Shown here in pieces: positions 17,409 through 20,547 of a stretch of DNA of 37,597 nucleotides (the stretch's first letter is position 1; every line of letters begins with the position of its first letter). Source of the stretch: Verrucomicrobiota bacterium (GTDB lineage: Bacteria; Verrucomicrobiota; Verrucomicrobiia; Opitutales; Puniceicoccaceae); NCBI GenBank assembly GCA_038744685.1, contig JBCDMB010000027.1, positions 1 to 37,597 on the forward strand, in the 5' to 3' direction. Under the pieces are notes generated by a model. The model had not been told where the DNA came from and ran no database searches. It worked only from the letters and a program-made list of their open reading frames with translations. Both the position numbers and the translations under genes were made by a program.

Positions 17409-17909
17409 ATGAAAACGTTACTGATTTTTCTAGTTCTTGTAGTAGTGGTTATCGGGGGACTTTGGGTCGCTAAGCGGGAGGGATTGTTCTCACGTGAAAT
17501 GACTTTGACGGCAACAGATGGACGCACAATCAGTGTCTCCGTAATCTCCCACAATTCTGAAGAAGTTCGCTTTGCCCGCATCTCGGACGGCAAAGTCTTT
17601 ACATTTCCTACGGACGAATTGAGCACGATTACGAGACTCCGGCTTCTGCTGAGGGACGACAGGGAGAATCTTGAGGATTGGCCAGTAGCTGAAACCGCAG
17701 GTAAGGCCCGCTACTCTGAGCTTTCCGAGAGACTCGCAGAACTTCACAGGCAGATCGCTTTGCTCGAACAGAAAAAAGAAGCAGCCGAGACGTCGTCGCT
17801 TCGCAGTATTGCAGAACGAGAGATCGAAAACGTTGAACTCAAAATCGAAAAGGTCGAGTACGAGATGGAACGGCGGTCCACCAATCTCAATATTCTCCCT
17901 ACTCAGTAA
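17409..17909 (+). CDS. Membrane-anchored coiled-coil protein with SHD1-like segment
   Basis: The 166-residue product starts with a single hydrophobic helix (residues 4-21, [18 protein letters not shown]). Residues about 30-75 ([13 protein letters not shown] then [13 protein letters not shown]) resemble the short beta SHD1-type repeat seen in many Verrucomicrobia and Planctomycetes exported proteins. Residues about 98-158 form a charged coiled coil ([19 protein letters not shown] onward). Function is unknown; it may be a scaffold at the inner membrane. Its last 11 bases overlap, antiparallel, the end of ccoO. Confidence 0.7.
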
Positions 17910-18558
17910 ATTTTGCCTCAGGAAGCTCGTAATCGATCTTCAAGCTTCTTAGGTAAGCCACCAACGCATGGGCCTCCAGAGTCGGTATGACTTCGTAGCC
18001 TTCTCCCGGGTAAAATGAAGAAGTCTCTGGTACATCCACTGCGTTCGGGGAGGGTGCCCCGTCTATTTTCTTCACCTCGAACAAGTAATTGTAAGGAGGC
18101 ATAATGGACCCCTCAGAAGTAATTTGAGGGTCGTAAAGGTGCTCGTAGTGCCAAGTCGAACCAGGAGCGGAAATCGATCTGCCACCGACGTTGGTCAGAT
18201 CAGGTCCCGTTCGCATTGTCCCCAAGAGAACCCGTTCCTGCAAAATGTAGTCGCGGGGAACCGATTGACGGGGACCCCAGCCTCTCTCAAAATCGGCGCC
18301 AAAACCCTGTGGGCGAACTTGTTGCGAGTGACAATACATACATCCCTCGCTGATGTATACCCGCTTTCCCTGCTCTGCCAGGCCCGAAGGCGCTCTCGGG
18401 AAAAGAGGTTCCCCCGTCATGAAGTTTCCCTCTGCGTCTAAAGTGGAAGTAGTGGGCGTGAGTCTTCCGTATTGATACTGGGAGGTGAGAATCAATCCCG
18501 CCCAAGAAAATGCGAGCGTGAAGAAAATCCCGAGAAAAAGCAGAGGAAGGTTCTTCAT
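17899..18558 (-). CDS. ccoO: cbb3-type cytochrome c oxidase subunit II (monohaem)
   Basis: CcoO carries one c-type haem that feeds electrons to the CcoN active site at the outer face of the inner membrane. The 219-residue protein has an N-terminal anchor (residues 4-25) and the characteristic haem site [13 protein letters not shown] (Cys73, Cys76, His77), followed by the family stretch [12 protein letters not shown] and the conserved tail region [20 protein letters not shown] chose the ATG at 18558; the frame extends upstream only to a TTG. It is the last gene of the respiratory operon, but a 431-bp cassette separates it from ccoN. No ccoP or ccoQ follows; the next gene is convergent. Confidence 0.96.
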
Positions 18559-18621
18559 CGGATCCGTGGAACGAAAGTGTTTGGGTGCCAACGATCATCA
18601 AGCTGAGAGCCGAATCTAGAC

Positions 18622-18649
18622 CACTGATGGACACTGATGGACACTGATT
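18622..18649. repeat. Left inverted arm of GxxExxY cassette
   Basis: The arm starts CCACT and then carries the decamer GATGGACACT twice and the start of a third copy. It lies 3 bases beyond the GxxExxY stop codon and 63 bases before the ccoO start. Confidence 0.85.
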
Positions 18650-18652
18650 TCT

Positions 18653-19036
18653 TCACCGAACTATTCTCTTCCACTCCAGCTTTGGTTGCTTGAAATTTAG
18701 AACATACCCCAGCCGAAAACCGGTCACTTTTAAGTAGTTCATCATCTGCCCAATTTCTCTGTCAGTAATCTTCTCTATTACTTTTGTATCCACGATTATC
18801 TTGTCCCAAACCACTAGATCAGGTATGTACTCCCCAACTTGCTTCCCCTTGTAATAGATTCCAAACTGCTTCTGCTGCAGGAGAGGTATTCCTCGTAATT
18901 CAAACTCAATAACGAGAGCATTTTCATAAGGTTTTTCATGGAATCCATGCCCGACTTGATTGAGGACCTCCATTGCCGCACCAACGACTTGCTGTGACTC
19001 TGCCTTGAAGATCGGCTCCTCCCCATCGGTGTCCAT
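18653..19036 (-). CDS. GxxExxY family protein (PD-(D/E)XK nuclease-like)
   Basis: This 127-residue protein shows the family signature GFHEKPY (residues 31-37) in the setting LNQVGHGFHEKPYENAL, then YIPDLVV (PD at 72-73) and IVDTKV (D83-x-K85), which fit the PD-(D/E)XK nuclease core with Asp where Glu is usual. The C-terminal part (IGQMMNYLKVTGFRLGYVLNF) is also typical. The family occurs widely as single genes with unproven function. The start ATG at 19036 lies within the right inverted arm, and an in-frame stop lies three codons upstream, so the start is well fixed. It interrupts the ccoN-ccoO pair in the same orientation, so it may be co-transcribed with the oxidase. Confidence 0.92.
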   Translation of the reverse strand: MDTDGEEPIFKAESQQVVGAAMEVLNQVGHGFHEKPYENALVIEFELRGIPLLQQKQFGIYYKGKQVGEYIPDLVVWDKIIVDTKVIEKITDREIGQMMNYLKVTGFRLGYVLNFKQPKLEWKRIVR

Positions 19037-19052
19037 CAGTGTTCATCAGTGG
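19025..19052. repeat. Right inverted arm of GxxExxY cassette
   Basis: The reverse complement reads CCACT, then GATGAACACT and GATGGACACC, differing from the left arm at two positions. It contains the start codon and first four codons of the GxxExxY gene and begins 16 bases after the ccoN stop. Confidence 0.85.
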
Positions 19053-19068
19053 TTGTTCATCGCTCCCA

Positions 19069-20547
19069 TCATACAGCAGGCCTACGCGCAAGAGAGACTT
19101 TCGGCTCCGCCGCCCGCCGGCCAACGATGATCCAGACCACGTTGATCGCAAAAGCGCAGTGACCAATGGTGAGGAGAATCCCGGCTACTGATCGCGACAT
19201 GAGCCATGGCACCATGTAACGCACGATATCCATGAACACAATGTCAGGATTGTTCATCATCATTCCCTGTATCCATCCGCCGACAGAAAGTCCGACCACA
19301 TAGATTCCAATCCCGAGGCTACAGGCCCAGAAATGAATCTTGATCAAAGCAGCCGATGGCCATTCCTTCTGGATCAATCGGGGAACCATAAAATAGATGG
19401 ACCCAAACATGATCATGGTGAAGAACGCATAAACCCCGTGGTGAGCGTGTGCCACCGTGAAGTGGGAAAAATGGGTCACTTCGTTGACCTCAGGCACGGC
19501 CATGGTCGATCCAAGGAGACTCACAAATGTGTAGGACATCGCCCCAAACACGATAAATCTCAGAGTGGGACTGTCCCATATCTGTCGAAAACAACCCCTC
19601 ACAGTCAGGTGGTGGTTCACCGCAACGACTACAACAGGTATGACCATCCCCAAGCTCCCTACCGTTCCCGCTGCCTGAAGCCAGAGCGGAATCGGTCCGC
19701 CAATTAAGTGGTGAACCCCAGCCCAGTTGTAGAAAAGTGCCAAAGACCAGAACCCGAGAATCGAGAGGTAATAGCTATGGATGGGTTTCCCAAGAATCTT
19801 GGGAATCAGGTAGTATGCAGCAGCAAGGCCAACCGGAGTATACCAAAGCCCCAGAACATTGTGCGCAAACCACCAGTTGGTGATCGATTGGACAGTGCCT
19901 CTCGCCGGGGCAAAGAAGATCAGCATCTGCGCAACTGTGTAAAGCCACGGAAACCAGAAAAGACCGGCCAGGATATACCACTGGGAAACATACACATGCT
20001 CGCCCTTTCGATAGTGAAAAGCCAAAATTCCCCACACTCCAATCAAAGCATAGGAAAGAGCGAGAACCGGAGTAATGTAGGTTGGAATCTCCAACCACTC
20101 TACGGATGTCATGTTCCCTGTGAGGATTCCGTAGATCCCCACGGTTACTCCGAAATTCCAAAGGATTCCGGCGACAAGCAACAACCCTCCATGGCGAACG
20201 GGAGATCGACATAGTCTCGCCATAATCCAAAGGGCCACTGCAAATACTGCGTTGTTGCCCCAACCGTAAGAGACGGCGTTCAAGTGGGCCGACCTCAACC
20301 GGCCAAACGTCAGATCGGGGAAAGCAGAGAGGAATTCGGGGTTATGTAGTTTGAAGGAAGCTACAAATCCAAAGACGGATCCGAGCAAAAGCCAAACCAC
20401 TCCGGACACCACGAAAAAAATGCCCCCAACCATCATCGAGGAGTCAATTACACTGAGAGCAGTTCGCTCGGAATACGACCGTGAACCGTAGACGCCGGTT
20501 GGTGGCGCAATGGTTTCAGGTTCTGCTGTAACAGTGGCGGTTGACAT
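19069..20547 (-). CDS. ccoN: cbb3-type cytochrome c oxidase subunit I
   Basis: CcoN is the catalytic subunit that reduces oxygen to water at a haem b/haem b3-CuB centre and pumps protons. The 492-residue protein has about twelve helices and the metal-ligand motifs: a His in LRSAHLNAVSYGWGNNAVF, WWFAHNVLGLWYTP (CuB His), FYNWAGVHHLIG (the His pair and the helix-VII Tyr position typical of cbb3 enzymes) and HFTVAHAHHGVYAFF (the b/b3 haem ligands). Thus catalytic residues look intact. It lies 20 bases after ccoS. Its partner ccoO is downstream, beyond the GxxExxY cassette. Confidence 0.97.
   Translation of the reverse strand: MSTATVTAEPETIAPPTGVYGSRSYSERTALSVIDSSMMVGGIFFVVSGVVWLLLGSVFGFVASFKLHNPEFLSAFPDLTFGRLRSAHLNAVSYGWGNNAVFAVALWIMARLCRSPVRHGGLLLVAGILWNFGVTVGIYGILTGNMTSVEWLEIPTYITPVLALSYALIGVWGILAFHYRKGEHVYVSQWYILAGLFWFPWLYTVAQMLIFFAPARGTVQSITNWWFAHNVLGLWYTPVGLAAAYYLIPKILGKPIHSYYLSILGFWSLALFYNWAGVHHLIGGPIPLWLQAAGTVGSLGMVIPVVVVAVNHHLTVRGCFRQIWDSPTLRFIVFGAMSYTFVSLLGSTMAVPEVNEVTHFSHFTVAHAHHGVYAFFTMIMFGSIYFMVPRLIQKEWPSAALIKIHFWACSLGIGIYVVGLSVGGWIQGMMMNNPDIVFMDIVRYMVPWLMSRSVAGILLTIGHCAFAINVVWIIVGRRAAEPKVSLARRPAV

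Follow-up and report, generated by a model that had tools for sequence, protein, structure and literature searches.

Inverted arms of short tandem repeats bound a GxxExxY gene between ccoN and ccoO in a Verrucomicrobiota genome and recur around related genes across the phylum

In REPtrons and TIRtrons, Y1 transposase genes sit between inverted repeats of their own that also occur as dispersed gene-less copies (PMC3733652). Together with RAYT/TIRYT, REPs and REPINs they are the closest described systems (PMC3733652, PMC2817692, PMC3116915) to the unit analysed here, a GxxExxY gene enclosed by inverted arms in a Verrucomicrobiota genome. Like TIRtrons and REPtrons, this cassette type carries a single small nuclease gene between inverted ends of gene-specific sequence, is accompanied by dispersed gene-less hairpins with similar ends and lacks classical transposon ends. 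Unlike them, it encodes an enzyme of the predicted PD-(D/E)XK rather than the Y1/HUH kind, its ends consist of 8-10 bp units repeated in tandem and have an AACC tip, rather than being GTAG-tagged palindromes or GGGGWSAS TIRs, and its gene rides operons in sense, which RAYTs do not.

A second point of comparison is the intervening sequence (IVS) in the 23S rRNA of Coxiella, which is 428 nt long, has a 28-bp terminal stem, carries an S23p gene and is cut by RNase III (PMC4990558). The GxxExxY cassette matches it in length (~430 nt), terminal stem (~28 bp), possession of one small ORF, sense orientation and lack of a transposase, but differs in its location in a protein-coding operon, its protein family and its 8-10 bp arm period. 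MITEs, too, derive from a coding element and keep its inverted repeats without the gene; unlike for MITEs, we found no target-site duplication and no parent transposase. One paper in the open-access literature mentions GxxExxY in passing, with neither arms nor function; we found no description in that literature of GxxExxY or S23p cassettes outside rRNA, and searching the literature for the arm sequence strings gave nothing relevant.

The window, that is, the whole analysed stretch of 37,597 nucleotides, contains a series of minus-strand genes matching subunits of alternative complex III and a cbb3-type oxidase (ActD, NrfD, cytochrome c). This respiratory string ends with ccoO, and the cassette lies before it (Table 1). 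The initial annotation had described inverted ends of 28 bp (26/28 matching) at 18622-19052. Inverted ends are present, but they reach further: the arms are 29 nt each, span 18620-19053 on the outside, are complementary at 27/29 positions (93%) and leave 376 nt between them. Each arm consists of CCACT plus decamers and contains three heptamer cores in 10-bp steps, which in the 5' arm read CACTGAT/CACTGAT/CACCGAT. As annotated, a 127-residue GxxExxY gene (TIGR04256, PF13366) stands alone between the ends, being the only ORF of at least 90 aa there, with ccoN and ccoO on its flanks; its start codon (ATG, 19036) and first four codons (MDTD) are indeed written inside one arm, and its stop codon is 4 bp from the other. 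The arm pair scores 24, when only 2.5% of 588 mismatched locus pairs attain 15. We detected no terminator at the arms, and Rfam covariance models (group I/II intron and others) matched the cassette at chance level only.

Table 1. Features of the GxxExxY cassette and its neighbours in the window
Feature	Coordinates	Strand	Remarks
GxxExxY cassette, whole unit	18620..19053	-	434 bp; canonical tip AACC begins at 19054 on the - strand
5' arm (relative to gene)	19025..19053	-	ACCACTGATGAACACTGATGGACACCGAT; carries start codon and codons 1-4
3' arm, inverted copy	18620..18648	+	ACCACTGATGGACACTGATGGACACTGAT
GxxExxY gene	18653..19036	-	127 aa, predicted PD-(D/E)XK fold; conserved E34, D73, K85 present
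Linker, 3' arm to ccoO ATG	18559..18619	-	61 bp; absent from relatives
ccoN, cbb3-type oxidase subunit I, upstream neighbour	19069..20547	-	stop codon 15 bp ahead of arm
ccoO, subunit II, downstream neighbour	17899..18558	-	ATG at 18558, end 17899; reading frame intact

The cassette is not a 23S rRNA intervening sequence by location and ORF, as it lies between ccoN and ccoO and encodes GxxExxY. By gene content it is neither an insertion sequence nor a DNA transposon, as a transposase gene is absent, and by enzyme it is not a TIRtron or REPtron, as no Y1 (HUH) tyrosine transposase is found between the inverted repeats. GxxExxY units do share with TIRtrons and REPtrons inverted repeats that are specific to the gene and also dispersed in the genome.

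The encoded protein matches TIGR04256 GxxExxY (E 2.4e-38; 131 bits, cut-off 35; positions 2-116 of the 116 in the model covered) and PF13366 PDDEXK_3 (E 6.6e-36), and is by sequence a full member of the GxxExxY family. Its AlphaFold2 model (pLDDT 94.8) is a compact PD-(D/E)XK fold whose nearest structural match is Cas4 SSO0001 (Z 10.0, rmsd 3.1, 98 residues aligned), followed by restriction-like nucleases, including archaeal Holliday junction resolvases and the alkaline exonuclease LHK-Exo. E34, Y37, D73 and K85 are conserved, D73 and K85 nearly invariantly (D-T-K in the window copy), and the modelled fold together with the D...(D/E)xK motif places the protein in the putative PD-(D/E)XK nucleases. 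Searching the PDB by sequence returned nothing. In the window's subfamily, dN values of 0.10-0.19 were obtained and dS is saturated, for which reason no omega ratio is given; these values point to a working protein under purifying selection.

Is the position between ccoN and ccoO ancestral? We surveyed 52 genomes of the order and obtained 29 ccoN loci in 28 genomes. At 28/28 loci in the 27 other genomes, ccoO comes next without a GxxExxY match in between, which bears out the annotated insertion into the ccoN-ccoO junction and speaks against a gene shared by the relatives at this place. The gap between the two genes is 510 bp here versus 17 bp in a congener (CcoN 79% identical), and it is 6 bp in a close relative from another genus of the family. 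Since the relatives' junctions lack both, the cassette and the 61-bp linker were gained in this lineage. The comparison of junctions thus supplied the empty site (the sample holds one genome per species and hence no strain-level empty sites), but not the duplication that had been envisaged: 40 loci with clean tips showed no excess of abutting direct repeats. Nor did the arm-tip loci compared show flank complementarity past the arms, of the kind left by insertion into hairpins or terminators. Near the cassette, CGATGAACAACC resembles the ccoO start CGATGAAGAACC at 11/12 positions, but 59 bp lie between the two. The linker holds a 16-nt near-match (88%) to the 3' end of ccoN (19120-19135), which could be debris from the insertion event; BLAST found no second copy of the linker in the genome.

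Another intergenic site was compared in three congeneric species (G000:C29 at ~14.4-15.2 kb; G003:C35:9150-10300, L345; G002:C91:16075-16748, L344). It holds different repeats in each, namely two GxxExxY cassettes with differing arms in two species and a tandem array in the third, and is possibly an insertion hot spot. Contig C29 was rejected as a second empty site, the sites of both congeners being full of other repeats rather than clean.

All rates quoted for GxxExxY genes come from 94 Verrucomicrobiota loci that were found by HMM, blind to arms; a separate contig scan with the arm-encoded peptide as query is biased towards armed loci. At a threshold score of at least 15, inverted arms are present in 71% of the 94 loci, compared with 2.5% when ends were paired across different genomes, 1.3% when they were paired across GxxExxY loci within one genome and 0% for ccoN loci at score 15. 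The search for arms around GxxExxY genes elsewhere, proposed with the initial annotation, was thus positive, while its decamer fell as a mark of the element: arm sequence varies from cassette to cassette and the architecture alone is constant. This genome has six GxxExxY matches by HMM, and the five examined each have arms of a different motif, which at two of these loci are weak (score 11.5). Across genomes, the more alike two proteins are, the more alike are their arms (Mantel 0.275, permutation maximum 0.072), with arms shared in 76% of pairs above 70% protein identity and in 0% below 35%. That is, arm sequence goes with the protein, not with the genome.

DNA homology between same-subfamily units that lie in unrelated places begins and ends at the arm tips, within -2 to +3 bp (window versus L019, -2/0 bp; window versus L020, -1/0). 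The arms thus delimit a discrete unit, in line with the minimal unit without transposase that had been proposed; the median GxxExxY unit is ~460 bp. Counting against mobility, close copies within a genome are rare (at least 70% protein identity in 1/50 same-genome pairs), so any transposition would have to be infrequent or mostly between genomes. Two simpler accounts were rejected: a chance inverted repeat by the mismatched-pair controls (2.5%, 1.3%), and a genome-wide repeat with genes fallen in by chance because arms from separate GxxExxY loci of the same genome do not match (1.3%). It is likewise highly improbable that the cassette is an ordinary accessory gene whose flanking inverted repeats are due to chance or are terminator-like. 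Such a gene would suit the commonness of GxxExxY and the roughly one quarter of loci that have no detectable arms, but the mismatched-locus and same-genome controls contradict it, as do homology that ends at the arms, insertion in a single lineage and the lack of a terminator at the arms.

GxxExxY genes occur in 69/145 Verrucomicrobiota genomes, and genes of the four-helix-bundle family S23p/IVP (TIGR02436) in 103/145. The few GxxExxY examples from outside Verrucomicrobia mostly lack detectable arms. Among plasmid copies, one from Bacteroides has the same kind of arms and four others have none, and a Treponema copy is weakly armed. The armed copy (L333, Bacteroides finegoldii plasmid) lies between radA and a gene for a FAD-dependent protein, all on the same strand, with CACAGAGGA-type arms, that is, the same cassette architecture in another phylum. 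No relatives were found in phages and viral contigs.

GxxExxY arms consist of about three repeats with short cores and 1-3 nt spacers; the tandem cores are kept and the spacers vary. Of 73 arms, 65 have their best internal period at 8-10 bp, and clear tips read AACC...GGTT. The S23p/IVP genes of the same phylum also have arms (78%, versus 3.9% in mismatched pairs; score at least 12, n=50), and here the period is 7 bp in 25/30 (Fisher p=6e-18 versus GxxExxY). In the 17 genomes with both families, GxxExxY arms favour at least 8 bp by 32:0 and IVP arms favour 7 bp by 14:3. The repeat period follows the encoded protein family, not the genome. A correlation between arm and protein would also be expected from the joint inheritance of 450 bp, which tells against a self-mobilising reading; joint inheritance alone would not, however, predict a family-specific period, and for this reason we think that each protein recognises its own arms. 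Such S23p/IVP genes outside rRNA, with inverted arms of 7-bp tandem repeats, were seen at L198-L227 and L357-L376 and share their form with the 23S rRNA IVS (PMC4990558); they look like a class parallel to the GxxExxY cassettes. At G000:C17:39747-40330 (L008), decayed arms of several kinds (CACTGATGGA, CACGAAGGA, GCAGAGACGC) adjoin one another between genes.

Arms also occur without a gene. The ten-mer arm pattern was found in 122/289 Verrucomicrobiota genomes, with a maximum of 109 copies in one, and the reversed control pattern had zero matches in the same 289. Twenty sampled ten-mer regions from those genomes and this one were mostly hairpins of 65-110 bp, and two were GxxExxY cassettes. 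In this genome, contigs C11 and C10 carry gene-less units; a deletion derivative, L047, has lost the first two thirds of the cassette. A congener has gene-less copies of 206 bp (87% alike, loop included) on both sides of a GxxExxY cassette, all with common CGCTTAT arms.

Ten-mer arms occur in 44/69 GxxExxY-positive versus 4/76 GxxExxY-negative genomes (p=1e-14, a value that overstates the evidence because the sampled genomes are related), and S23p/IVP genes have no added effect on their presence when GxxExxY is absent. The arms were, however, found in 0/43 genomes without a Y1 transposase gene, and among GxxExxY-positive genomes in 44/62 that are Y1-positive versus 0/7 that are Y1-negative (p=4e-4, overstated by the same relatedness). 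These counts, and the 15 Y1_Tnp genes of this genome, leave room for a Y1 (HUH) transposase of the RAYT/TIRYT kind that acts in trans on suitable hairpins, with the cassettes as passengers and GxxExxY as cargo. We regard this as unlikely: Y1 genes have unrelated arms of their own (REP hairpins or GGGGTCAG-type TIRs), Y1-positive genomes without GxxExxY are mostly armless (arms in 4/40), and arm sequence and period track the enclosed gene. Long Y1_Tnp genes (~300-350 aa) with inverted GGGGTCAG-type ends are present at G000:C25:2700-8800 (L308, L309) and at L310-L325 and match published TIRtrons; these TIRtron-like genes in this genome and the phylum are a good internal positive control.

The window cassette was annotated as using one arm as its translation start and as co-oriented with its operon, and both traits proved general. 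The first in-frame ATG lies in an arm or at most 15 nt after it in 61/92 armed GxxExxY loci, and the stop codon precedes the second arm by a median of 5 nt. With the start at or near one arm and the stop near the other, there is therefore no space for an internal promoter. Between co-directional neighbours the sense:antisense ratio is 62:5 for GxxExxY and 40:0 for S23p/IVP, versus 5:6 for RAYT genes as a mobile control (the strand of each neighbour was read from its longest open frame, which is crude but treats all classes alike). The sense placement within an operon seen at ccoN and ccoO is thus the rule for GxxExxY cassettes, not an oddity; sense orientation may be favoured either by insertion or by selection.

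The strong sense bias and the missing promoter space would also fit an element that acts at the RNA level, in the manner of the 23S rRNA IVS: the arms would pair in the transcript, RNase III would cut the stem and release the ORF, and the arms would serve RNA processing or autoregulation and spread by rare recombination. When the cassette RNA is folded by prediction, the window arms do pair with each other (z -2.1, prediction only), the RNase III-cut Coxiella IVS with its S23p gene has nearly the same dimensions (428 nt, 28-bp stem; PMC4990558), and its S23p relatives outside rRNA share the architecture. Still, kept tandem cores with varying spacers exceed the needs of a stem, the same arms exist as many-copy gene-less hairpins, and the period is specific to the protein family; we therefore consider an RNA-level element improbable, even more so than transport by Y1.

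Taken together, the cassette is probably a minimal, promoterless inverted-repeat element that rides operons and encodes a Cas4/RecB-fold nuclease directed at the element's own arms. That the arms bound a unit is directly observed, and the role of the nuclease and the way of movement are what we infer. GxxExxY would be transcribed by read-through of the host operon. Its protein would bind the repeated cores of its own arms, which at a period of 8-10 bp could lie along a single face of the DNA helix, and might nick or resolve them. Nicking or resolution could then allow the unit and its gene-less hairpin derivatives to be copied to new sites, much as RAYT/TIRYT are thought to maintain REPs and TIRs. 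S23p/IVP proteins may be a second protein class with the same lifestyle and 7-bp repeats.

More tentatively, and with somewhat less than even confidence, GxxExxY and S23p/IVP could be two further classes besides Y1, each maintaining and spreading its own short inverted repeats with a family-specific period (8-10 and 7 bp, respectively), promoterless by sense insertion into operons and leaving swarms of gene-less hairpins behind. A large class of GxxExxY-type units, in which the arms take their repeat pattern from the type of protein enclosed, is apparently undescribed. Two common families of unexplained role would thereby become parts of small elements, with a likely substrate named. If true, this would account for a large class of dispersed hairpins, and a REP-like system could be defined without a transposase.
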